From the NCBI RefSeq assembly GCF_040183065.1, contig NC_091132.1, positions 164,700,102-164,764,101 on the forward strand: a stretch of 64,000 bases of DNA, given 5' to 3'. The notes below the pieces were generated by a model. That model was not told where the DNA came from. It ran no database searches and saw nothing but the letters and a program-made list of their open reading frames with translations. Source of the DNA: Periplaneta americana. Lineage: Eukaryota; Arthropoda; Insecta; Blattodea; Blattidae. Below, one piece after another: positions 2,740-63,369 of the stretch. Each line of letters begins with the position of its first letter. Positions within the stretch are counted from its first letter, which is position 1. The translations under genes were made by a program, and so were the position numbers.

Positions 2740-4093
2740 CAGTGAGGCCACAAAGTTCTGTTACCCCTATTATAAACAAACTAAAATGTACGGCAATTCT
2801 TTATAGTAATTTTTATTTAAAACTTACAATGAATTTAAGATATATTCTGTGGTACTGACATTAAATATATCAGTAGGCTCATTGTGTGCCCCAACATTCT
2901 CAAAGGCAAAGGCAAAGAATAATACGCTGTCAAGTTCTGTGCGATATTTTTCGGAGCATTCCTGGCATATCATTAGGGAAAGCACGTGTCACAGCATCAG
3001 TGGTGTAATTATTGTCAGACCATTGGATCTGTATCCCTTCAGCGCTGTCGTCGTTCTTGAAAAAGTTAACGCCTGTACTCACTCCATTCCACCCGCTTTC
3101 CTCCCACCACGTCAAACAGCAGGCCACGAACCTTGCCGAATAGAGATGTTGCCAAACTTCCGTCAAACGGTGTCATAAATAACTAGCCCTCCATGCTACA
3201 ATATAATTTCTTTCAATCAAGATACATCTTGTATTTCTACAATTTTTATACCTAAATCCCTTGTCTCGAATCACTTTCCGTAGTGTTTCTCTCCAACCTT
3301 GGAAATTATTGCTTCTCTCGCAACCTTCAGTTATTTCTTCAATGTCGGAACTGCATTCTGCACGGTATATATATTTTTTTAATTTTTATTATATTGGGTT
3401 ATTTTACGATGCTGTATCAACATCTAGGTTATTTAGAGTCTGAATGATATGAAGGTGATAATGCCGGTGAAATGAGTCTGGGGTCCAGCACCGAAAGTTA
3501 CCCAGCATTTGCTCGTATTGGGTTGAGGGAAAACCCCGGAAAAAACCTCAACCAGGTAACTTGTCCCGACCGGGATTCGAACCCGGGCCACCTGGTTTCG
3601 CAGCCAGACGCGCTGACCGTTACTCCACTGCACGGTATAAAGTTCTTGTAACTTTCTTCTTAAAATATACATTAGTTCATATCATCTACCAGAATTAAAG
3701 CTTCCCTTGATCTGTTCTTCCATGGTGATTCTAGCTTTTCATCTCCTGCACAGACTCTCTCTTTCTTGATGTTCTTAATTAGGCACTCTGACCTGCCTAT
3801 GTTAATTACATAACATGTTATATGAGTATTAGTTAAGTAAGTAGTTTTAATAAGTAATCAATTGAAATAAAGTAAGCCTCACCTGTGATCGCAGTTGCCA
3901 TTTTCGTTGCCGGATTGATAGGAAGCAGATACTGACTGGGAAGGAATTGGAGTTCAGTTCAGTTCGCATATCTTACGGGGGCACAGTTCCAATGGTCCGA
4001 CAATAGACGTATCCGCCATCGTTTTGTTCCTATGATCTGAAACAAACTAAAGTAAATTTACATAAGGGGTAATGGGACTTTGTAGTCTCACTG
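2740..4093. mobile_element. DNA transposon with CAGTGAG termini and TA target site, Tc1/mariner-like
   Basis: The left end CAGTGAGGCCACAAAGT at 2740 is matched by the inverted right end ACTTTGTAGTCTCACTG finishing at 4093. Each end is flanked by TA (2738-2739 and 4094-4095). Similarity continues inward through a TTACCCC-like block and AAACAAACTAAA. The minus strand at 2930-3166 could encode a degraded transposase piece (SARFVACCLTWWEESGWNGV), but I do not recognise it firmly. A SINE sits inside at 3370-3630. The element lies in intron 3 of zinc-finger gene I. The superfamily call rests on the TA duplication and termini only. Confidence 0.7.
3370..3630 (-). repeat. tRNA-derived SINE (cockroach family 1)
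   Basis: Reverse-oriented copy of the commonest SINE in the window. The tRNA-like head (GTTACTCCACTG ... GGGATTCGAACCCG in + orientation) is at the right. The central block carries the GAGGTTTTTTCCGGGGTTTT motif, and the 3' end reads TTTACGACGCTGTATCAACA. It is flanked by a 9-bp target duplication CACGGTATA at 3361-3369 and 3631-3639. Confidence 0.92.
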
Positions 4094-7138: not shown

Positions 7139-8705
7139 CACTGGACTGCCGCCTTTCTGCGACAGTTTTAAAGAAGATGACTACTTGGAAACAGGTGAGA
7201 AGACATTCAAATGTGATATTTGTGGAAAGTGGTTTTTCGACTCGGCAATGCTCAATAACCATGCTGTTCTACATATGCGCAATAGATCATTCATTTCCGA
7301 TGTTTGTGGTAAGGATTGTTTGCAGTTGGAGCATCTCAAAAAGCATGAACATCTACACACAGGCAAGGAGTCATTTCCATCTGATTTATGTGGAAAAAAT
7401 TGTTCGAAATCGAATGATTTGAAAATACATTTACACGTGCACAAAGGCGAAAAGCCTTTTGTTTGTGATAAACGTGCGAAAGAAAATACACAATCTTCTA
7501 GACTGAAAAGAAACGCTCTCTTAAACACTAGGCAGAAGCCCTTCACTTGTGATATAATTGGAAAGAAATTTTCTGATTCGAGTATTCTGAAAAGGCATGT
7601 ACTTATTCACACTGGCGAAAAGCCATTCTGTTGTGATATTTGTGGAAAGAAATTTTCTCAATCTTATAATCTTATAACTCATGCACTTGTACACACAGGA
7701 AAGAAGGCATTCAGTTGTGATATATGTGGAAAGAAATTTTCGCTATCTGGAAATCTAAAAAAGCATGCAGTTGTACACACAGGGGAGAAGGCATTCAGTT
7801 GTGATATATGTGGAAAGAAATTTTCGCATTCTGGCAGTCTAAAACTGCACGAACTCAAACACACAGGGAAGAAAGCATTCAGTTGCCATATATGTGGAAA
7901 GAAATTTTCGCAATCTGGTTCTGTAAAACGGCACTCACTGGTACACACGGGACAGAAGACATTCAGTTGTGATATATGTGGAAAGAACTTTTCGGAATCT
8001 GGTAATTTAAGAAAGCATGCAATTATACACACAGGCGAGAAGGCATTCAGATGTGATACATGCGGAAAGAAATTTTTTCAAAGGGGTGGTCTGAAAAGGC
8101 ATGCACGTGTTCATTCTGGCGACAAACCATTCTGTTGTGATAATTGTGGAAAGACATTTTCTGAATCTGGTAGTCTTAGAACTCATGCATTGCTACACAC
8201 AGGGAAGAAGGCATTTACTTGTGATATATGTGGAAAGAATTTTTCGCAGTCTGGTGGTCTACGATCCCATGCACTCGTACACACAGGGAATAAAACATTC
8301 AGTTGTGATGTATGTGGAAAAAAATTTTCGCAATCTAGTAATTTAAAAATTCATGCATTCGTACACACAGGAGAGAAGGCATTCATTTGTGATATATGTG
8401 GAAAGAAATTTTCACGATCTGTTAATTTAAAAAAGCATGCACTCATACACACAGGTTACAAGGCATTCAGTTGTGATATATGTGGGAAGAAATTTTCTGA
8501 ATCGAGTTTTCTGAGAATTCATACACGTGTTCACACCGGGGAGAAGCCATTCTGTTGTGATATATGTGGAAAGACATTTTCTGAATCTAGTAGTCTTAGA
8601 AATCATACTTATGTTCACACAGGGAAGAAGGCATTCAGTTGTGATATATGTGGAAAGAAATTTTCGCTACTTGGTAATCTAAAAAGGCATGCAGTCGTAC
8701 ACTAA
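7139..8705 (+). CDS. C2H2 zinc-finger gene I, terminal finger exon
   Basis: Probable nuclear DNA-binding protein. The exon starts after the acceptor TTCTTCACAG (7129-7138); its first base completes the Gly codon from exon 3. It encodes about 522 residues with 18 finger units of 28 residues (84 bp). Finger 1 is intact, units 2-5 have lost zinc ligands (SDVC, SDLC, a strongly altered fourth unit, CDIIG), and units 6-18 are intact with the scaffold CDICGKKFS and linkers HTGEK/HTGKK. The intact fingers are nearly identical in scaffold but vary at helix positions -1, 3 and 6. The stop TAA falls in the linker after finger 18, with more finger sequence following. An upstream ATG at 7107 is intronic by this model. 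A non-spliced start or a decaying gene remains possible. Confidence 0.85.
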
Positions 8706-8908
8706 GGGGAGAAAGCATTCAGTTGTGATATATGCGAGAAGAAATTTTCGCAATCTTGTGGAATAAATAAGCATTCATGCACATAGGGAAGAAGACATTC
8801 AGTTGTTATATATGTGGAAAAGAATTTTCGCAATCTGGTACTTTAAAAAATCATGCTGTCGTACACACAGGGGAGAAGGAATTCAGTTGTGATATATGTG
8901 GAAAGAAA
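8706..8908 (+). pseudogene. Decayed finger repeats downstream of gene I stop
   Basis: Finger sequence continues past the TAA. The next unit reads as GEKAFSCDIC, followed by a frameshift and in-frame stops, then at least one more unit with [13 protein letters not shown], before homology stops abruptly at about 8908. The array was once at least two to three units longer. The break point is followed by a Tc1-like fragment. Confidence 0.85.
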
Positions 8909-23627: not shown

Positions 23628-24221
23628 CTGCCTCCGTGGTCTGTTGGTCAGCATGCTGGCTTCCAGATCAGGAGGTCCCGGATTTGATTCCTGGGTTCAG
23701 CTCTCGGTGAATTTTTCTTGAAGAACAAAAATTATCTGCGTGTCTAGAGTCTGGAAATTTGTATGAATATGTGTGATTTTGAATGTGCCGGGTTAATATT
23801 AATTAATTAAAAAAAAATACATCAGGAATGTCGCTGGACAGTAAGTTTTTTTTTTAGTTATTTTACGACGCTGTATCAACATCTAGGTTATTTAACGTCT
23901 GAATGATATGAAGGTGATAATGCCGGTGAAATGAGTCTGGGGTCCAGCACCGAAAGTTACCCAGCATTTGCTCATATTGGGTTGAGGGAAAACCCCGGAA
24001 AAACCTCAACCAGGTAACTTGCCCCGACCGGGATTCGAACCCGGGCCACCTGGTTTCGCAGCCAGACGCGCTGACCGTTACTCCACAGGTGTGGACAACT
24101 GGACAATAACATGAACACACGTTTCAACATCACATTGTTGACAAGTAATTCCATTTGTTAGCACAGCCATAAAGCATCTAATAGATGCTATAACGAACAA
24201 CGAAAAAAAAAAAAAAAAAAA
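23628..24221 (+). repeat. tRNA-derived SINE (family 3), interrupted
   Basis: The head CTGCCTCCGTGGTCTGTTGG, an A-box (GTTGGTCAGCATGC) and a B-box (GGATTTGATTCC) are present, and the tail is a run of 18 A. Flanked by a perfect 13-bp duplication GTGACTTGTGCAA (23615-23627, 24222-24234). Block B at about 51940 is the empty site. A family-1 SINE is nested inside. Confidence 0.93.
23845..24098 (-). repeat. Family-1 SINE nested in family-3 SINE
   Basis: Well-preserved reverse copy with head GGGATTCGAACCCGGGCC and 3' end TTTTACGACGCTGTATCAAC. Flanked by CTGGACAGTAA (23834-23844) and CTGGACAATAA (24099-24109). Confidence 0.93.
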
Positions 24222-29943: not shown

Positions 29944-30760
29944 GGAAGAATAGGTTCTTTGTTTAGTTTCACCATCAAGGATATGTTGCTGCTTAATGTA
30001 TTTTCATTTTAATTCTTTTATATTCATAATGACCTTGAACATTCAATTTTAGTTCAATTATGTCTTTAAATGTACATTCCAGTGACTACAAATCCAAAAC
30101 GATCATCAAACTTGGTATACCTTAAAAATAATTAACATGAATGAATGCCACACCCATTCCACACGTACATAATACGTGAGTTTCTAATTCAGTTTATTTA
30201 ATTCAATTGAAACATTCATGTATGTAAATGAAATAATATTCCATCACATTTTGTTCAAGAATTATAACAGTATGATACGAAAGATTGTCAGTTACATTAA
30301 CATATCTTGATTTAGTCATTAAATTTATTCAAATACATATATGTTACAGAAGTCAAGAACCTGGTGAACAATAATATAATTATAGAAGATTTTCAACAAA
30401 TGTGTTGCATATAAGACATACGCTATTACAACATTTTAATCGTAATATCAGTAATATTTTGCATAATATCACTTAGAATCTGTCTCACACAGATATTAAG
30501 TACAAATATTTCAAATATTTTATCAATTTTAAAAATTTACATTATATGTAATAATGACATTCAGCAAAATGTAACATGAGTTGTATGTAATTGACATTCA
30601 TATTTTATAATTTTTCTTTTCCGACAAGTCGGCGAGACTACACAAATCAGTGAAATTGAGCAATTGTCACACCAGTATCAGATTTTATTACATATAACTC
30701 ATGATTAATTATTGAAATCATTGCTATGCTTATTACTATGAATACCTTATTGACTTACGT
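29944..30760. other. Intron 1 of gene II, duplication block A, no gene
   Basis: From about 29990 the sequence is collinear with 58005-58776. AT-rich; no gene or RNA was found. Confidence 0.8.
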
Positions 30761-31027
30761 GTCCACATCTGTGGAGTAACGGTCAGCGCGTCTAGCTGAG
30801 AAACCAGGTGGCCCGGGTTCGATTCCCAGTCTGGGCAAGTTACCTGGTTGAGGTTTTTTCCGGGGTTTTCCCACAATCCAATATGAGCAAAAGCTGGGTA
30901 ACTTTCGCTGTTGGACCCCGGACTCATTTCACCAGCATTATCACCTTCATCTCATTCAGACGCTAAATAACCTAAGATGTTGATAAAGCGTCGTAAAATA
31001 AACTACTAAAATTTAAAAAAATAAAAA
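30761..31027 (+). repeat. Family-1 SINE shared by both duplication blocks
   Basis: Head GTCCACATCTGTGGAGTAAC, B-box GGGTTCGATTCCC, central GGTTTTTTCCGGGGTTTTCC, 3' end GATAAAGCGTCGTAAAATAA. The 12-bp duplication ATTGACTTACGT lies at 30749-30760 and 31028-31039. The same insertion is at 58777-59044, so it predates the block duplication. Confidence 0.95.
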
Positions 31028-31548
31028 ATTGACTTACGTTTAGATTTCGTTGTAACATTTTCAATATCTTATGATGCCATATAGGCGAAAACGTTCATAA
31101 ATTTTCTTCTGTAAGATCTCGTAGCAAATAATAATTTGCAAAATAAAAATGATAAATCATATGTTTGAGAAACTTTAAAATAAGTTTATACGGTTTGTAG
31201 TAGTTCAGGAAGTACACTTAATTGTGATTTTTAAATTTTTATATATTTGTTTATTAGCCAAACTCCACACATTTGATGTCTATTTCTTGGGACCAGTTGT
31301 TCGTAACTACGCATTAATATCACAAGTCACAAAGACTACTTCATAGTTCCTTTTTCATCTGCAGTAATATCCTTACACTGACTATTACTTGGGGACAAAG
31401 TATTATTCCTGTCTTCCCCACTAACACCTTCAGTAAACCAACGCACAAGATTATGAACAATAAAATCATTCTGGACGAGGCCTTTCATACAAATTATATG
31501 ACTACTGATTCTGGAGTGCGTTTACATGCATTCATTGACATCAGAATT
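31028..31548. other. Region upstream of lost exon 2, duplication block A
   Basis: Collinear with 59045-59933 apart from a SINE in block B. The stretch 31240-31400 also matches 63840-64000 at the window's right edge. Non-coding. Confidence 0.85.
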
Positions 31549-32205
31549 GTCACGGTATGTTTGGATCTTTAATATTGTAATCCGACAGAATGAAAATTCG
31601 GCTATCTTTCCTCTACATATATATTTATAAAACGGTTTCCGGTGTATCAATCTTTAACTGTTTCGGTTCGCATGCGTCGATCCCCTTCGACCTCCTACTT
31701 GAATGCTCGAGAGCAGGGGGATGGTCGTGGGAAGGACAGTCGGATCGCGGCGCCAGTTGGAGAGTTGGCCTCATGTGAGTCGTTAAGAGGGTAGAATCAA
31801 CTGAGTTGGAGAGATCAACCAACCGAAACTTGACCTCTGGTATGTTATGAGTATACACCGGAAACTTGGAGATTGCGATTGTGAGATGGGTTATGTTGTA
31901 GGTCGAGAGATTTTAACAGATATGTAAAAGAGCTCTTGCTGAATAAGATAGTCTTGTTATTTATTTTTGCAAGTTTGCTGTTAATTCTATTTAAGAGAAA
32001 GATTATAATACTGGCAGATATTCTTGTTACTTATTGTTGAAAGTTTGCTGTTAATTCTATTTAAGAGAAAAATTATAATACTGGGAGATATTCTTGTTAC
32101 TTATTGTTGAAAGTTTGCTGTTAATTCTATTTAAGAGAAAAATTATAATAATGGGAGATATTCTTGTTACTTATTGTTGGAAGTTTGCTGTTAATTCTAT
32201 TTAAG
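31549..32205. mobile_element. Truncated copy of the minisatellite-bearing TIR element
   Basis: It starts with GTCACGGTATGTTTGGATCT at 31549 after the same AGAATT flank as at 59928-59933. It follows the block B copy through an internal hairpin (TTTCCGGTGTAT / ATACACCGGAAA) and ends after about three 70-bp minisatellite units at about 32205. The right inverted terminus is missing, and the exon 2 expected beyond it was not found. Confidence 0.88.
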
Positions 32206-33103: not shown

Positions 33104-33948
33104 GTACTTACTTACTGGCTTTTAAGGAACCCGGAGGTTCATTGCCGCCCTCACATAAATCCGCCATTGGTCCCTATCCTGTGCAAGGTTAATCCAGTCT
33201 CTACCATCATATCCCACCTCCCTCAAATCCATTTTAATATTATCTTCCCATCTACGTGTGGGTCCACACCAGTGGAGTAACGGTCAGCGCGTCTGGCCGC
33301 GAAACCAGGTTCGAATCCTGGTCGGGGCAAGTTACCTGTTTGAGGTTTTTTCCGGGGTTTTTCCTCAACCCAATACGAGCAAATGCTGGGTAACTTTCGG
33401 TGCTGGACCCCGGACTCATTTCACCGGCGTTATCACCTTCATTTCATTCAGACCCTAAGTAACCTAGATGTTGATACAGCGTCGTAAAATAACCCAATAT
33501 CAGCCACATGGTTTCTCGGCCAGACGCGCTGACCGTTACTCCACAGGTGTGGACTATATGCATTTCTGGATTCGCTCCTATGTATTACTACATGCACTGC
33601 CCATCTCAAACGTCTGGATTTAATGTTCCTAATTATGTCAAGTGAAGAATACAATGCGTGCAGTTCTGTGTTGTGTAACTTTCTCCATTCTCCTGTAACT
33701 TCATCCCTGTTAGTTCCAATTATTTTCCTAAGCACCTTATTTTCAAACACCCTTAATCTCTGTTCCTCTCTCAAAGTCAGAGTCCAAGTTTCACAACCAT
33801 AAAGAACAACCGGTAAAATAACTGTTTTATAAATTCTAACTTTCAGATTTTTTGATAGCAGACTGGATGATAAAAGCTTCTCAACCGAATAATAACAGGC
33901 ATTTCCCATATTTATTGTGTGTTTAATTTCTTCCCGATTATCAGAGCA
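33104..33948 (-). mobile_element. RTE-clade LINE 3' fragment with SINE inside
   Basis: The 3' end TACTTACTTACTGGCTTTTA is at 33106. The minus strand at 33909-33560 reads MGNACYYSVEKLLSSSLLSK, VVLYGCETWTLTLREEQRL and SRRLRWAVHVV. It breaks off at about 33948. A family-1 SINE pair at 33262-33554 replaces about 60 bp of LINE sequence. Confidence 0.88.
33262..33554 (+). repeat. Head-to-head SINE pair (full plus inverted partial)
   Basis: A forward family-1 SINE (33262-33500, with GGTTCGAATCCTGGTCGGGG) is followed directly by an inverted head fragment (33501-33554, ending CCACAGGTGTGGAC). Both ends are thus the same SINE head facing outward. Confidence 0.88.
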
Positions 33949-40749: not shown

Positions 40750-41659
40750 GATTGCAGGTACCTTTGAGAGGTCAAATTCCGGTCACCTAAGAATTCATGA
40801 ACACCTACATACAGGCGAGAAACGTTTGATATGTGAAATCTGTGGCATGTCTTTGTCGGATATGACTGCCATGAGAAGCCATGAACGCCACCACACAGAC
40901 GAGAAACCTTTCAAATGCAATGTTTGTGGAAAGTCTTTTCCAATACTTCATGGCTTAAAACTTCATGAGCGTGTGCATACAGGCGAGAAACCTCACAAGT
41001 GTGATGATTGTGGCATGTGTTTCTCGCAATCTAGTAACCTGAAGAAAAACAAATTATTGCACACTGGAGGGAAACCGTTCAAGTGTGATGTTTGCGACAA
41101 GTGTTTCTCCCAGTCGCGTTACCTGAAGACACACAAGTTATTGCACACTGGAGAGAAACCTTTCAAGTGTGATGTTTGTGACAAATGTTTCCCGTTGTCG
41201 CGTTACCTGAAGACACACAAGTTATTGCACACTGGAGAGAAACTTTTCAAGTGCGATATATGTGACAAATGGTTTTCCCAGACTGGTAATCTCAATGCGC
41301 ACAAATTATTGCACACTGGAGAAAAACCTTTCAATTGTGGTGTTTGTGATATCTCTTTCTCGCAATTTAAAAACTTAAAGTCCCATTTACGCCATCACAC
41401 TGGCGAGAAACCTTACAAATGCAATTTTTGTGATAAGTCTTTCACTACGTCTGGTAACGTAAAACGTCATGAACGCCAGCATACAGGCGAGAAACCTTTC
41501 AAATGTGATGTCTGTGGTAATTGTTTCTCTCAGACTGCTGGCTTAAGATATCATAAACGCCTTCACACAGGCGAGAAACCTTTCAAATGTGATGTTTGTA
41601 GTAAGTGTTTTACAAGTTCTAGTAACCTAAAGAGTCATGAACGCCTGCATAAATCCTAG
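40750..41659 (+). CDS. C2H2 zinc-finger gene II, terminal finger exon
   Basis: Probable nuclear DNA-binding protein. The acceptor TTTCCTTTAG ends at 40749; the first base completes Arg with exon 3, then [20 protein letters not shown], a half finger lacking its Cys pair. Ten fingers follow, starting [10 protein letters not shown] and ending [13 protein letters not shown], joined by HTGEKPFKC linkers. Nine have both Cys and both His. Finger 3 ([21 protein letters not shown] without its last His-pair member: first His is Asn) is likely weak. Fingers 4 and 5 are near duplicates. TAG lies where the next linker's Glu codon would be (HKS-stop), and finger code continues after it. The exon is shorter than that of gene I and its finger sequences differ, so the paralogues have diverged. 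Confidence 0.87.
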
Positions 41660-42125
41660 AAACCTTTCAAATGTGATATTTGTGGTAAGTATTTCTCTCA
41701 CTTCGGTGGTCTAAATGTTCATGAACGCCGCCGGCATGGAGACGAAAAATCTTTGAATTGAGATGTTCGTATTGATCATCTCATTCAAGCAGTTTAAAAC
41801 CCACACACTGGCTACAAAAATTCTAATTATAATGAGTGACAAAAGAATTTCGCTAGCATATATAGTTTAAGTGTTCATGAACTCAGACATATTCTCAAAA
41901 ACCCTTATGTAAGTTTTGTGGTTAGTATTTGTGTCGGTAGTGTTACCCAAAAAGTTATGAACGCCCATAGGTGAAAATTCTTTGAAATGTGATGTCTCTC
42001 TAACGTGTTTCTTTTGCAAGACTATTTGAAGTATGTTTTCAAACATACTGACGAAAAGATTTGGTAATGCGATGTCTGTGAAATGTGTATATCTCAATCC
42101 TGTAAGCTAAGAACTTCATGAACTC
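41660..42125 (+). pseudogene. Decayed finger repeats downstream of gene II stop
   Basis: Directly after TAG the frame continues KPFKCDICGKYFSHFGGLN with HERRRHGDEKS, a nearly whole finger, then a stop. Four or so further units to about 42125 are recognisable only by words such as AGTTTAAGTGTTCATGAAC and GTGATGTCT, with many frame changes. The ancestral array had at least 15 fingers. Confidence 0.85.
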
Positions 42126-53763: not shown

Positions 53764-54330
53764 GGAAGAATAGGTTGTTTAGTTCGTGCTTAAAACATTG
53801 CACTCATTTATTTCTTACGTTGGTCATAGCTTTGAGTTACAGATTAAATAGCATCCATGTCTCTCTGTAATAATATACAAAGAGATGTTAGAGATCACAG
53901 TAAAGTATTTGCTGCTTGAATCAATATTAAACAGAACAACTCTACTACTGTTCTCTCACCCATTACTCTCAGGAGAAACATCTAACACAATAACTCATTT
54001 CAAAACATATTTTACATTTCCCGGCAGACTCTTTTGTTGTTATAAATTAAGTCATTCTGAAGTGAAATATACTTCTATGTGGAAATATAAAAAGAAGTAA
54101 ACATATATTTGAACAAAACAAAATGATATTACAGAGCTATTCGCTTACATGCTGTGTTACGAGACTTTTGTACAACTTATATTTCACTATTGTCTCTGAA
54201 GTGTGTTCACGTGCGTTCGTTGACATCAGGATCTAATAATAGAGTTGTGAGACATTAGAAATGGTCTCTGATTTTTTGCGAACGGTTACATATAATATAT
54301 TTAATAATTATTATGTTCTGTGTGTTATAG
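53764..54330. other. Intron upstream of exon 2 of gene III
   Basis: From about 54170 the sequence is a diverged copy of the region before 63370, including GTTGACATCAGGATCTAATA, an empty site for the TIR element at 59934. Nothing coding is seen. Confidence 0.65.
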
Positions 54331-57999: not shown

Positions 58000-58776
58000 A
58001 ATTGCAATGTATTTTCACTTTAATTCTTTTATATTCATAATATTCTTCAACATTCAATTTTAGTTCAATTACGCCTTTAATATGTATATTCCAGTGACTA
58101 GAAATCCAAAACGATCATCAAACGTTGTATACCTTAAAAATAATTAACATGAATGAATGCCGCACCCATTCCACACGTACATAAAACCTAAGTTTCTAAT
58201 TCAATTTATTTAATTCAATTGAAAAATTCATATATGTAAATAAAATCATATTCAATCACATTTTGTTCAAGAATTATTACAGTATGATACGAAAGATTGT
58301 CAATTACATTAACATATCTTGATTTAATCATTATATTTATTCAAATATATATATGTTACAGAAGTCAAGAACCTGGTGAACAATCGTATAATTATAGAAG
58401 ATTTTCAACAAATGTGTAGCATATAAGACATACGCTATTGCTACATTTTAATCGTAACAGCCGTAATATTTTGCATAATATCACGTAGAATCTGTCTCAC
58501 ACAGATATTAAGTACAAATATTTCAAATATTTTACATTTTATCAATTTTAAAAATCTACATATATATAATAGTGACATTCAGCAAAATGTAACGAGTTGT
58601 ATGTAATTGACATTCATATTTTATATTTTTTACTTCCCGACAAGTTGGCGAAACTACACAAATCAGTCAAATTGAGCATTTGTCACACCAGTATCAGATT
58701 TTATTACATATAACTCATGATGAATTATTGAAATCATTGTTATGCTTATTACTATGAATACCTTATTGACTTACGT
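58000..58776. other. Intron of gene III, duplication block B (paralogue of 29985-30760)
   Basis: Collinear with block A with small differences. No gene or RNA is seen. Confidence 0.88.
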
Positions 58777-59044
58777 GTCCGCACCTTTGGAGTAACGGTT
58801 AGCGCTTCTAGCTGCGAAACCAGGTGGCCCGGGTTCGATTCCCGGTCGGGGCAAGTTAACTGGTTGAGGTTTTTTCCGGGGTTTTCCCTCAACCCAATAT
58901 GAGCAAATGTTGGGTAACTTTCGCTGTTGGACCCCGGACTCATTTCACCGGCATTATCACCTTCATCTCATTCAGACGCTAAACAACCTAGGATGTTGAT
59001 AAAGCGTCGTAAAATAAATTACTAAAATAAAAAAATAATAAAAA
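58777..59044 (+). repeat. Family-1 SINE, block B copy
   Basis: Orthologous in position to 30761-31027, with the flanks ATTGACTTACGT (58765-58776) and a mutated ATTGTCTTACAT (59045-59056). Confidence 0.95.
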
Positions 59045-59449
59045 ATTGTCTTACATTTAGATTTCTTTGTAACATTTTGAATATCTGATGATGCCATATA
59101 GGCGAAGATGTTCATAAATTTTCTTGTGTAAGATCTATTAGCAAATAAAAAAAAAAAAGAAGATAAATCATATGTTTGAGAAACTTTAAAATAAATTTAT
59201 AAGGTTTGCAGTAGAAGTACAATTAATTGTGATTTTAAATTTTTTTTATAATAGTTTATTAGCCAAACTCCAAACATTTGATGTCTATTTCTTGCGACCA
59301 GTTGTTCGTAACTAGGCATTAATATCACAAGTCACAAAGACTACTTCATAGTTCCTTTTCCATCCTCCTCCATTCTGCAGTAGCATTCTTACACTGACTG
59401 TTACTTGGGGACAAAGTATTATTCCTGTCTTCCCCGCCAACACCTTCAG

Positions 59450-59823
59450 TTCATTCATTCATTCATTCATTCATTTATTTATTTTATTCCATAGATCTTA
59501 CATGAGCAATGAAGCTTTAAGATGTGGAGCAAGTCGAAATTTTACAGTAATACAATTACAATGTTTACAAATTTTTATAATTTTACAATTTAGTAATTTT
59601 CTACAAATTTTACAATTTTGTGCAAATTTTTACAATATTTTGGCGAGATGTAGTGAGATGAGGTGAGGTCCGAGGATTCGCCAAAATATTACCCGGCATT
59701 TGCCTTTTGGTTGGGGAAAACCTCGAAAAAACCTAACTAGGTAATCAAATCAAAGGGATTGATGCCAAGGACTCGCCATAGACCATCCGGCTTCAATCCC
59801 ACGGATGTGGAAATCCATTAAGT
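59450..59823 (-). repeat. SINE with (TGAA)n tail, family 4
   Basis: Reverse orientation: the head is at the right (CCACATCCGTGGGATTGAAG on the minus strand), then the central TAGGTTTTTTCGAGGTTTTC block that resembles family 1, then a LINE-like 3' part ending in ATGGAATAAAATAAATAAAT and TGAA repeats at 59457-59475. Block A lacks it at about 31440. Confidence 0.82.
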
Positions 59824-60236
59824 GAATGCACAAGATTATGGACAATAAAATCATTCTGGACGAGGCCTTTCATACAAATTATATGACTACTGACTCTGGA
59901 GTGCGTTTACATGCATTCATTGACATCAGAATTGTCACGGTATGTTTGGATCTTTAATATTGTAATCCGACAGAATGAAAATTCGGCTCTCTTTCCTCTA
60001 CATGTATCTTTATAAAACGGTTTCCGGTGTATCAATCTTTAACTATTTCGGTGTGCATGCGTCCATGCCCTTCGACCTCCTACTTGAATGCTCGAGGGGA
60101 GGGTGATGGTAGTGGGAAAGACAGTTGGAACGCGGCGCCAGTTGGAGAGTTGGCCTGATGTGAGTCGTTAAGAGGGTAAAATCTACTGAGTTGGAGAGAT
60201 CAACCAACCGAATCTTGACCTCTGGTATGTTAAGAG

Positions 60237-61545
60237 AAGGGAACGGAATTTGGAGCAATAAAAGCTAGTATTGGCATCTACACAGCCATTTGTTCACAAC
60301 CCTTTATACAAAGTCCTTCCCACCATGACATACTCGCAGATCTCTGCACGTCAACAACAGGTGAACGGGACAGTTGTCGCTGTTCAAAGTAGTGAAGTGC
60401 AAGTACAATGCCGAAAGTGAAACCAAATAACAATACAAAATTGAAAGACTATATTTGTAAAAGTTCCAGATCGAGTATAAAAATTCAGGAAACAATTCCC
60501 TAAATTGTCGCTTCCCCCATGTCCAGTTTTTAAGAGCTGGTGGTCATGGTTAGAAGCTTGCAATTATTACGCACATCACCTCCAATCTGTGGAGAAAGTG
60601 GTCCAGTCTTTCGATCCCAATGACGCGGCTGCGATTCAAATATGCCAGGAACTGCTAAATGTTAGAACAAACGAGAAAGAAGTCACCGAAATAAGTCAAA
60701 TTTTTTATATTTACCGGATGCCATTATTCGATTAGAAAAGTCAGGAGTAGAACTAGTTGAGCAACTAAATATTATGAGACTATTGCAAAGAAACTGAGTG
60801 CAGTAGAAGGTGAAGTAGGAAAATGTGTTGGTGAAAAAATGAACAGATTTTGATTAAAAATGATGGATTCAGTATTCTAGGTTGGATTTCAGATGTACTA
60901 ACAAAGACGTGTCCCAATGGCGTCATTCAACATGTGAATTTAATTGACGTATCTTGTTTCAAGTACTTATTCTCCAATTGCCTCTGCTGATGTAGAGCAG
61001 AGTTTTTCCATGTTAAAAAATTTCCTCCCTTGCAGTAGAACAAAGTTGTATTTTGAAAATTTGAAAATGATATTTACAGTTTATTATAACCAGGCACAGC
61101 AGGAATATAATTATTTCATCAACAAAACATAGCATTAATTGAAATTGCCATATCGTTTGGTTCTACATATTCAGAGGCGAGTTTCATACAGAAGACAACT
61201 GTCTATCAGCCATCAATGTTTCCACTGACACGCGAGGACGCAGAGATTGATATTTAATTATGTATAAGTTATTTGTAATATTGTTTACTGGTGTCTTGTG
61301 CGTTGCCAAGAAAAACACATGTAGTTCAAAATGAAATGCCGATTATGTATGTAGGCCACTATAAGTCATTAAACTATAACAATTGTTTATTCTGAAATAC
61401 GTTTACAGCACGTTGCGTGTAAGTTTGTATGAAGTGGCCTGTACTCGTCCATGCTCTGTGGCGCAGCTCGCTTGACAATCACTGAGTTACGAATATCTAT
61501 ACTGCGTTTCACCATTCGTTATAATACTTCAAATCCCTTTCCCTG
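60237..61545 (+). mobile_element. hAT transposon remnant (CGGBP1-like transposase), block B only
   Basis: The ends AAGGGAACGGAATTTGGAG and inverse CAAATCCCTTTCCCTG lie within the 8-bp duplication GTTAAGAG (60229-60236) / GTTATGAC (61546-61553). Block A has one GTTATGAG. The + strand encodes hAT pieces: MPKVKPNNNTKLKDYICKSS at about 60408; SWWSWLEACNYYAHHLQSVE and SFDPNDAAAIQICQELLN at 60505-60735; and the C-terminal dimerisation part YSPIASADVEQSFSMLKNFL at 60944-61132. Large parts in between are missing, so it is a deleted, inactive copy. Confidence 0.92.
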
Positions 61546-61645
61546 GTTATGACTATACACCGGAAACTTGGAGATTGCGATTGTGAGATGGGTTATGTTG
61601 TAGGTCGAGAGATTTTAACAGATATGTAAAAGGAGCTGTTGCTGA

Positions 61646-63135
61646 ATAAGATAATCTTGTTATTTTTTTTTTCAAGTTTGCTGTCGATTCTATTTAAGAG
61701 AAAGATTATAATACTGGGAGATATTCTTATTGCTTATTGTTGGAAGTTTGCTGTTAATTCTATTTTAAGAGAAAAATTATAATACTGGGAGATATTCTTG
61801 TTACTTATTGTTGGAAGTTTGCTGTTAATTCTATTTAAGAGAAAGATTATAATACTGGGAGATATTCTTGTGGCTTATTGTTGGAAGTTTACTGATAATA
61901 ACTATTTAAGAGAAAAATTATAATACTGGAATATATTCTTGTGGCTTATTGTTGGAAGTTTACTGATAATAACTATTTAAGAGAAAGATTATAATACTGG
62001 AAGACATTCTTGTTACTTATTGTTGGAAGTTTGCTGATAATTCTATTTGAAAGAAAAATTATAATAAAAGGGGATATTCTTGTTACTTATTTTTAAAAGT
62101 TTGCTGTTGATTCTGTTAAGAGAAAGATTATAACACTGGGAGATATTCTTGTTACTTATTGTTGGAAGTTTGCTGTTATTTCTATTTGAAAGAAAGATTA
62201 TAATACTGGGAGATATTCTTGTTACTTATTGTTGGAAATTTGCTGTTAATTCTTTTCAAGAGAAAGATTATAATACTGGGAGATATTCTTGTTGCTTATT
62301 GTTGGAAGTTTGCTGTTAATTCTGTTCAAGAGAAAGATTATAATACTGGGAGATATTTTTGTTACTTATTGTTGGAAGTTTGCTGTTAATTCTATTTGAA
62401 AGAAAGATTATAATAAAAGGGGATATTCTTGTTAATTATTGTTGAAAGTTTGCTCTTAATTCTATTTAAGAGAAAGATTATAATACTGGGAGATATTCTT
62501 GTTACTTATTGTTGGAAGTTTGCTGTTAATTCTATTTGAAAGAAAGATTATAATAAAAGGGGATATTCTTGTTATGTATTGTTGAAAGTTTGCTGTTAAT
62601 TCTATTAAAGAGAAAGATTATAATACTGGGAGATATTCTTGTGGCTTATTGTTGGACGTTTACTGATAATAACTATTTAAGAGAAAGATTATAATACTGG
62701 AAGACATTCTTGTTACTTATTGTTGGAAGTTTGCTGATAATTCTATTTGAAAGAAAAATTATAATAAAAGGGGATATTCTTGTTACTTATTTTTAGAAGT
62801 TTGCTGTTGATTCTGTTAAGAGAAAGATTATAATACTGGGAGATATTCTTGTAGCTTATTGTTGGAAGTTTGCTGATAATTCTATTTGAAAGAAAAATTA
62901 TAATAAAAGGGGATATTCTTGTTACTTATTGTTAGAAGTTTGCTGTTAATTTTATTTAAGAGAAAGATTATAACACTGGGAGATATTCTTGTTACTTATT
63001 GTTGGAAGTTTGCTGTTAATTCTATTTGAAAGAAAGATTATAATACTGGGAGATATTCTTGTTACTTATTGTTGGAAGTTTGCTGCTAATTTAATTTAAG
63101 AGAAAATTATAATGAAGGGAGATATTGTAATTTTG
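61646..63135. repeat. 70-bp minisatellite, about 20 units
   Basis: Unit: AAGAGAAAGATTATAATACT, then GGGAGATATTCTTGTTACTT, ATTGTTGGAAGTTTGCTG and TTAATTCTATTT. About 20 whole units with partial units at both ends. Two main variants exist, ATACTGGGAGATATT and ATAAAAGGGGATATT. A distinctive three-unit run (61943-62139) recurs at 62641-62840, 698 bp or ten units later. Confidence 0.96.
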
Positions 63136-63369
63136 GTTTTTCCTTTTCCTGAATTTATTTGTTTCTCAAAGTTTCCTCAGTTAAACACTGGTGTAGTGAG
63201 GGACGTATCATTGATTTTTCATTCTGTCGGATTACAATATTAAAGATCCAAACATACCGTGACAGAATTTAATAATAGATTGGGGATACATTAAAATAGT
63301 CACAGGTGTTTCGTGAACAGCTACATAATTATGATTTATTAAATAATTATTATGAATTCTATGTTGCAG

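Follow-up and report, generated by a model that had tools for sequence, protein, structure and literature searches.

Background

Tandem repeats in or beside transposable elements include minisatellites in the long terminal repeats (LTRs) of mouse MaLR elements, a minisatellite associated with Gmr9/GmOgre and repeats in miniature inverted-repeat transposable elements (MITEs), as listed in excerpts of three reviews (PMC9659126, PMC6947457 and PMC12628747). Tetris elements, according to excerpted descriptions, are foldback or terminal inverted repeat (TIR) elements with internal repeats, and hAT groups that make target-site duplications of 5 and 6 bp are described in excerpts of PMC12730594 and PMC9004415. 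Here we analysed a stretch of 64,000 nucleotides from Periplaneta americana (assembly GCF_040183065.1, contig NC_091132.1, positions 164,700,102 to 164,764,101 of the forward strand), designated the window, and an insertion within it at positions 59933-63264. A first-pass annotation, made from the letters of the window, had described this insertion as a small TIR element with a 6-bp target-site duplication and an internal 70-bp minisatellite.

Like the solo LTRs of Ty3/Gypsy retrotransposons, the family to which the insertion belongs has TG...CA ends, a 4-bp duplication, an LTR of about 700 bp, and partners with reverse transcriptase (RT), RNase H and integrase pieces, a primer-binding site and a purine tract. 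Unlike them, the window copy continues at its right end with TT(G) and the unique 3' (U3) end of the LTR in inverted orientation, which gives the insertion perfect inverted ends of 48 bp. It shares inverted ends and internal tandem repeats with Tetris, as excerpted, but is of LTR origin, and no DNA transposase of its own was found. Because the reviews list tandem repeats in or beside LTRs and MITEs, the array part of the window LTR is of a known kind: as in the excerpted MaLR, Gmr9/GmOgre and MITE cases, it occupies a fixed place in a dispersed element and varies in unit number between copies. It differs from those cases in that the variation can be traced among segmental duplicates of one insertion. 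We propose, with a probability of roughly 0.85, that the feature arose as one insertion of an aberrant single-LTR complementary DNA (cDNA) of a Ty3/Gypsy-type LTR retrotransposon; duplication of the locus, insertion of a hAT-type element and change of the array followed later.

Structure of the insertion

As read from its sequence, the window feature is a single-LTR insertion flanked by the 4-bp duplication GAAT (59929-59932 and 63265-63268), and both of its outer ends are U3 ends. The LTR (TGTCACGG...GTATCA, 59933-63210, forward strand) was recognized from dispersed copies, LTR pairs and internal domains; it owes its extra length to a nested hAT-type element and a long array. It is followed by TTG (63211-63213, forward strand), the same three bases that follow the 5' LTRs L012 and L057 (TTGGTAGCAGAG), although the G may be the first base of the next part. 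That part repeats the first 52 bp of the LTR, its U3 end, in inverted orientation (63213-63264, reverse strand), and had been taken for the right TIR.

Comparison of the window with itself aligned two arms of 52 nt each (59933-59984 and 63213-63264) that are 98% complementary, and the first 48 bases, from GTCACGG, are perfectly inverted. The near-perfect inverted ends had thus been seen correctly, as had the AGAATT present on both flanks. An exact 6-base match between random places in the window has a chance rate of 0.00047, so the flanking repeat is unlikely to be accidental. Taken by itself, the symmetry of the ends at this locus fits a perfect duplication of 2, 4 (GAAT) or 6 bp (AGAATT), or one of 8 bp with one mismatch; the length was set by other copies in the genome.

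Two related loci lie in the window. In a third paralogue near 54 kb, both flanks align and the insertion is absent; the unfilled site, AGGATC, lies at 54228-54233 on the forward strand, and its GGAT corresponds to GAAT. The paralogue is therefore an empty site, as had been claimed, but it does not fix the ends and a 6-bp duplication, since the other copies give 4 bp. A segmental duplicate contains the same insertion a second time (31548-32205, forward strand). This second copy has the left flank in common with the main copy (97% over 109 bp), lacks the hAT-type element, and is broken off within the array after 3.7 units, with loss of the right end.

Identification of the family as a Ty3/Gypsy-type LTR

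The genome (3.23 Gb in 91 contigs) was searched with the left 167 bp of the window insertion. Matches were found at at least 40 places (40 scored of 157 candidates), with identities from 100% down to 80%. Copies were taken with their flanks from 38 places outside the window (L023 and L027 are one insertion), together with L049 and L050 from a search with the array. Eighteen of the 24 measured copies were 633-761 bp long (about 700 bp), with the same left end and usually two or three array units. A typical copy begins with TGTCACGG, runs to CGTTACA with a right end like GGTGTAGTGAGGGACCGTTACA, and is followed by unrelated DNA. The ends recur at unrelated sites and, as the first-pass annotation had read them, bound a mobile insertion.

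The genome copies include three LTR pairs. The pair on contig 7 (C7; L012 and L010) is flanked by AGTT/AGTT and has an LTR-LTR identity of 96.0%, that on contig 5 (C5; L033 and L020) is flanked by GGCC/GGCC, and that on contig 4 (C4; L009 and L018) is flanked by GTAG/GCAG, a match of three bases in four, with 95.6% identity over the first 480 bp. Identity was computed for C7 and C4, and domains were searched inside these two pairs, with stop-to-stop pieces searched apart and nothing mended. Inside C4 (L009), matches to RVT_1 (E=1.9e-20), RNase H, H2C2 and the integrase core occurred in that order, all above their cut-offs. Inside C7 (L012, L051), RVT_1 was above its cut-off, a zinc knuckle match fell exactly on the threshold, and matches to protease (E=6e-5) and integrase (E=0.00096) were both below theirs. 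The two interiors thus contain pieces of gag, RT, RNase H and integrase type in Ty3/Gypsy order. A primer-binding site follows three right ends, reading TTGGTAGCAGAG at L012 and L057 and TGGTAGCAGAG at L009, and the latter is also contained in L012 and L057. The corresponding tRNA is, we assume, initiator tRNA-Met. A purine tract of the GCGGGGAGGGGGGA type lies ahead of the left ends L010, L015, L018 and L020.

By its LTR pairs, domain order, primer-binding site, purine tract and 4-bp duplications, the family is identified as the LTR of a Ty3/Gypsy-type retrotransposon, and the LTR copies are old, with about 4% LTR-LTR divergence. Apart from the size of the duplication and the extent of the array, the structural observations of the first-pass annotation were sound; the class was misread, as the ends belong to an LTR and not to a TIR element. 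Relatives were also sought in viral, phage and bacterial collections and none were found; insect genomes lie outside those collections, and the result is hence silent on insects.

Two further observations concern the C7 interior. A mariner-like insertion (HTH_48 and DDE_3) lies among the retrotransposon pieces, and a DUF7869 match (L051:4073-4480, E=1.9e-6) is possibly another nested insertion.

Size of the target-site duplication

A T precedes GTCACGG in 21 of the 24 copies (it is A in L032 and L042, and the end of L038 is decayed), and an A follows the TTAC-type right end in 22 of the 24 (the exceptions are L031 and L034). Because the flanking T and A recur in nearly all copies, both belong to the element, and the duplication is therefore 4 bp. 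The 24 copies were scanned for duplications with the right end free to slide five bases either way and with no chance control; ten matched at all four bases, nine at three and five at two. The five (L010, L012, L015, L018 and L020) are each a member of an LTR pair or lie behind a purine tract, so that no match is expected within one LTR. Six copies with unsettled ends (L024, L036, L041, L044, L046 and L047) were left out of the scoring.

When the scan was combined with the LTR pairs, the composites described below and L043, identical 4-bp duplications were found in 14 insertions: the window group (GAAT), L027 (ATAT), the LTR pairs with AGTT and GGCC, and L011, L013, L014, L016, L017, L019, L021, L028, L039 and L043. 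L009 matched at four bases only at a shifted end and was excluded from this count. Only four of the 14 (the window, the C7 pair, L021 and L043) can also be read as 6 bp, and the 6-bp duplication was accordingly abandoned.

Mirror-image right ends in other copies

A search with the LTR right end returned 37 places (37 of 37 candidates scored) and was incomplete, as the known ends L026, L040, L042, L043, L045 and L048 were missing from it. Flanks were inspected for all 37, of which 27 came from the window and earlier copies and ten were fetched with about 200-270 bp of flank. Three right ends continue into the primer-binding site, and six rows, which represent five independent insertions (the window and L022 being one), continue into an inverted left end. 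In the earlier flanks, where a search by E-value could miss inverted pieces of 16 bp, the first 24 bases of each flank were read and no such piece was seen.

In the window group, TTG (with the G ambiguous) comes directly after the LTR end GTATCA and leads into the first 52 bases of the LTR in inverted orientation; the right terminus of L022 is slightly decayed. GAAT flanks this composite on its outer sides, and comparison with the empty paralogue confirms that the whole is one insertion. L027 carries an inverted piece of about 215 bp, with ATAT/ATAT outside the composite, and L037 one of about 154 bp. The pieces in L055 and L059 are 16 and 20 bp long, and both copies have lost their left ends. 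TTG follows the LTR end in the window group, L027 and L037.

L045, which is outside the 37-row list, has at 916-1064 the LTR followed by nearly the whole complement of a tRNA, a G-tract and a hairpin of two left ends. Rfam places the tRNA on the minus strand, with E=0.0052 and a score under the gathering threshold. The arrangement resembles an accident of reverse transcription in which synthesis ran on through the primer tRNA.

As a separate observation, L064 and L037 share a foreign sequence starting GCTCGACCAT at a nearly equal LTR position, after about 80.

Proposed origin of the U3-U3 ends

The ends are most readily explained by a template switch during reverse transcription. Plus-strand strong-stop DNA, which comprises U3, the repeated region (R) and the unique 5' region (U5), would copy the spacer and the first bases of the primer tRNA. 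Its 3' end would then transfer to the 5' region of a plus-strand U3, in the simplest case that of the same molecule, and the switched strand would copy that U3 to its end; the resulting DNA would terminate in U3 on either side. The integrase of the element would insert this DNA in the normal way. The locus was later duplicated with its surroundings, a hAT-type element entered the window copy, and the 70-bp array shifted in length between the duplicates. Self-insertion mediated by integrase is less likely, as the junction would then fall at the processed CA, with no additional TTG.

Several points weigh against this proposal. We infer the route from its end products and from the established reverse transcription of LTR elements, and what the genome displays is the products alone. 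An outer duplication is proven for only two of the five composites (the window group and L027); that of L037 is poor (GCAT/TTAT), and L055 and L059 have lost the left end that would show one. In L045, which is not among the five, the duplication matches at three bases of four (GTGG/ATGG). In the duplication scan, with its sliding end and no chance control, 9 of the 24 copies matched at only three bases and 5 of the 24 at only two. L055 has just a T after the LTR end, the junction in L059 is off the LTR end, which is shortened, and L061 continues with TTG and has no detectable inverted piece. Finally, no clear microhomology was seen by eye at the composite junctions.

The lack of clear junction microhomology leaves room for a different route to the same composite, in which the unprocessed U5 end of a cDNA was joined, before integration, to a broken U3-end fragment of another cDNA. 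An unprocessed end of LTR plus TTG is what such joining would capture. End-joining would, however, require free U3-end fragments as short as the 16-20 bp seen in L055 and L059, and a polymerase switch near the 5' end of a template accounts for these short pieces more easily; we consider end-joining unlikely, though a serious contender.

A second alternative is that a normal solo LTR had its right end altered after insertion, by inverted duplication or gene conversion of the left end. Inverted duplications do occur, the LTR copies are old, and three of the five composites are without a proven outer duplication. In two independent insertions, however, the duplication (GAAT and ATAT) encloses the inverted piece as well, the empty site matches the composite in its entirety, and three of five junctions read as LTR plus TTG, as after a 5' LTR (with the G ambiguous in the window group). 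A change after insertion is thus improbable.

More doubtful still is the view closest to the original class, namely a non-autonomous TIR DNA transposon, with hAT6-like elements and their 6-bp duplications as the nearest named kind, whose own transposase left the remnant inside. It draws on the 48-bp inverted ends, the readable 6-bp repeat, the hAT-like C-terminal piece in the interior, and a hAT group with 6-bp duplications described in an excerpt of PMC12730594. Against it, the duplication is 4 bp in 14 insertions, four of them readable as 6; the inner element is bounded by ends and 8-bp duplications of its own; it is missing from 13 of 14 aligned copies, which have its target site unfilled, while the fourteenth (L013) holds another element; and the same ends enclose retrotransposon coding pieces as LTR pairs. 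We put its chance at only a few in a hundred. Assignment to a hAT6 or CGGBP1/hAT-19-like element, suggested by the C-terminal piece and the 6-bp reading, was ruled out by the copies without the segment and the 4-bp duplication.

A Ginger2-like DNA transposon with an integrase-like transposase, whose TGTNR ends and 4-bp duplications (excerpt of PMC2836005) are matched by the TGTCA/TGTAA ends here, was dismissed, as LTR pairs with a primer-binding site and purine tract enclose pieces of RT (RVT_1 in C4), RNase H and zinc knuckle, and the long inverted ends are missing from typical copies.

Returning to the aberrant single-LTR cDNA, we tentatively suggest that this family may regularly make single-LTR cDNAs whose U5 is capped by a folded-back U3, that integrase may insert them with the usual 4-bp duplication, that 16-20 bp of U3 appears to be enough, and that the products would resemble TIR elements. 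The unusual trait of the element is its recurrent U3-U3 ends; in all else, as an old LTR with a nested hAT-type element and an internal repeat of varying length, it is of an ordinary sort. Should this route hold, the inverted pieces, which range from 16 to about 215 bp, form a natural length series on the minimal terminus for a Ty3/Gypsy-type integrase, and bear on how far dead ends of reverse transcription still get inserted. When a single locus is read without genome-wide copies, such insertions can be misfiled as TIR DNA transposons or MITEs, and the present one is an example. At the level of titles and the starts of abstracts, no evident report of inverted U3 ends on LTR insertions was found; subscription journals are mostly outside the literature covered, and absence from print is thus not established.

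The nested hAT-type element

The window has 1,309 extra bases at a point where the sequence is uninterrupted in the 31-kb copy and in 13 of 14 aligned copies. The extra bases form a nested, decayed hAT-type element (60237-61545, forward strand) with the ends AAGGGAACGG and CCTTTCCCTG, which are of the YAGGG type, a hAT end motif. It is flanked by 8-bp duplications, GTTAAGAG at 60229-60236 and GTTATGAC at 61546-61553, that are imperfect (six bases of eight); the unfilled site in the 31-kb copy is GTTATGAG. Broken transposase pieces, an N-terminal MPKVK piece and C-terminal pieces with a weak match to the hAT dimerisation domain, lie at 60404-61132 on the forward strand. The PF05699 dimerisation domain was matched with E=0.011 in the window piece, 0.067 in a longer read-through and 0.045 in L046, all below the curated cut-off. 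When the hAT pieces were compared with solved structures, one search gave no match at E<=1 and another gave three unrelated matches at E 0.4-1.4.

The nested element resembles hAT transposons in its YAGGG-type ends and its 8-bp duplications; its match to the dimerisation domain is weak. It is, however, a passenger in the LTR and not the owner of the 48-bp inverted ends, and the transposase remnant belongs to it. The statement that no transposase is visible accordingly stands for the outer element and fails for the interior.

L046 carries the same inner family at exactly the same LTR position, with a perfect 8-bp duplication, GTAATAAG, on both sides. Its LTR part is 77.9% identical to that of the window and the first 900 bases of its inner element are 92.5% identical, which indicates that the element in L046 is a separate insertion. 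A third, different element, starting CAGGCTTCC, lies at the same eight bases in L013, with GTGATGAG on both sides. Three separate hAT-type insertions from two families (window 60229-60236, L046 from 501, and L013) hence share one 8-bp LTR site, GTNATRAG, which is an apparent target hot spot.

L022 has a different insertion of about 1.2 kb between the left part of the LTR and the array, with mirrored ends of the AGTCTACTATATAGTCACGAAGC type and a possible 5-bp TATGT repeat.

Length variation of the 70-bp array

The minisatellite in the window LTR (61649-63126, forward strand) was measured with Tandem Repeats Finder (TRF) at 21.1 units of 70 bp. The earlier estimate of about 20 units was close; the array makes up 1,478 of 3,332 bp (44%), and thus does not fill most of the interior. 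The flanks of L022, L026 and L040 match both sides of the window insertion (left 96.3% over 108 bp, right 92-93%), and the main window copy, the 31-kb copy and these three are therefore five duplicates of one insertion. They hold 21.1 units (window), at least 3.7 (31-kb copy, truncated), 2.9 (L022), 4.1 (L026) and 17.1 (L040). The unrelated insertion L016 has 29.6 units, and the typical copy L014 has 3.1.

Since unit numbers differ among duplicates of one insertion, the array altered its length in place. The simplest interpretation, given the two or three units of ordinary copies, is growth, with loss in some duplicates possible. The idea of a small TIR element that mobilises a long minisatellite was not upheld, as ordinary LTR copies hold two or three units and the duplicates of the window insertion vary; the mobile unit is most simply an LTR with few array units. 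The five duplicates allow minisatellite length change to be followed inside an LTR.

Other features of the window

Segmental duplicates make up the window as a cluster; 29995-31434, for instance, pairs with 58006-59450. Tandem repeats of 84 bp occur at 7191-8908 and 40788-41771, a period that we take to be that of C2H2 zinc-finger exons. An Rfam tRNA match on the minus strand at 24020-24092 lies within a dispersed repeat (3371-3627, 23846-24097 and 33262-33492) that is probably a tRNA-derived short interspersed nuclear element. A TCTG microsatellite of about 107 units occupies 2200-2631.

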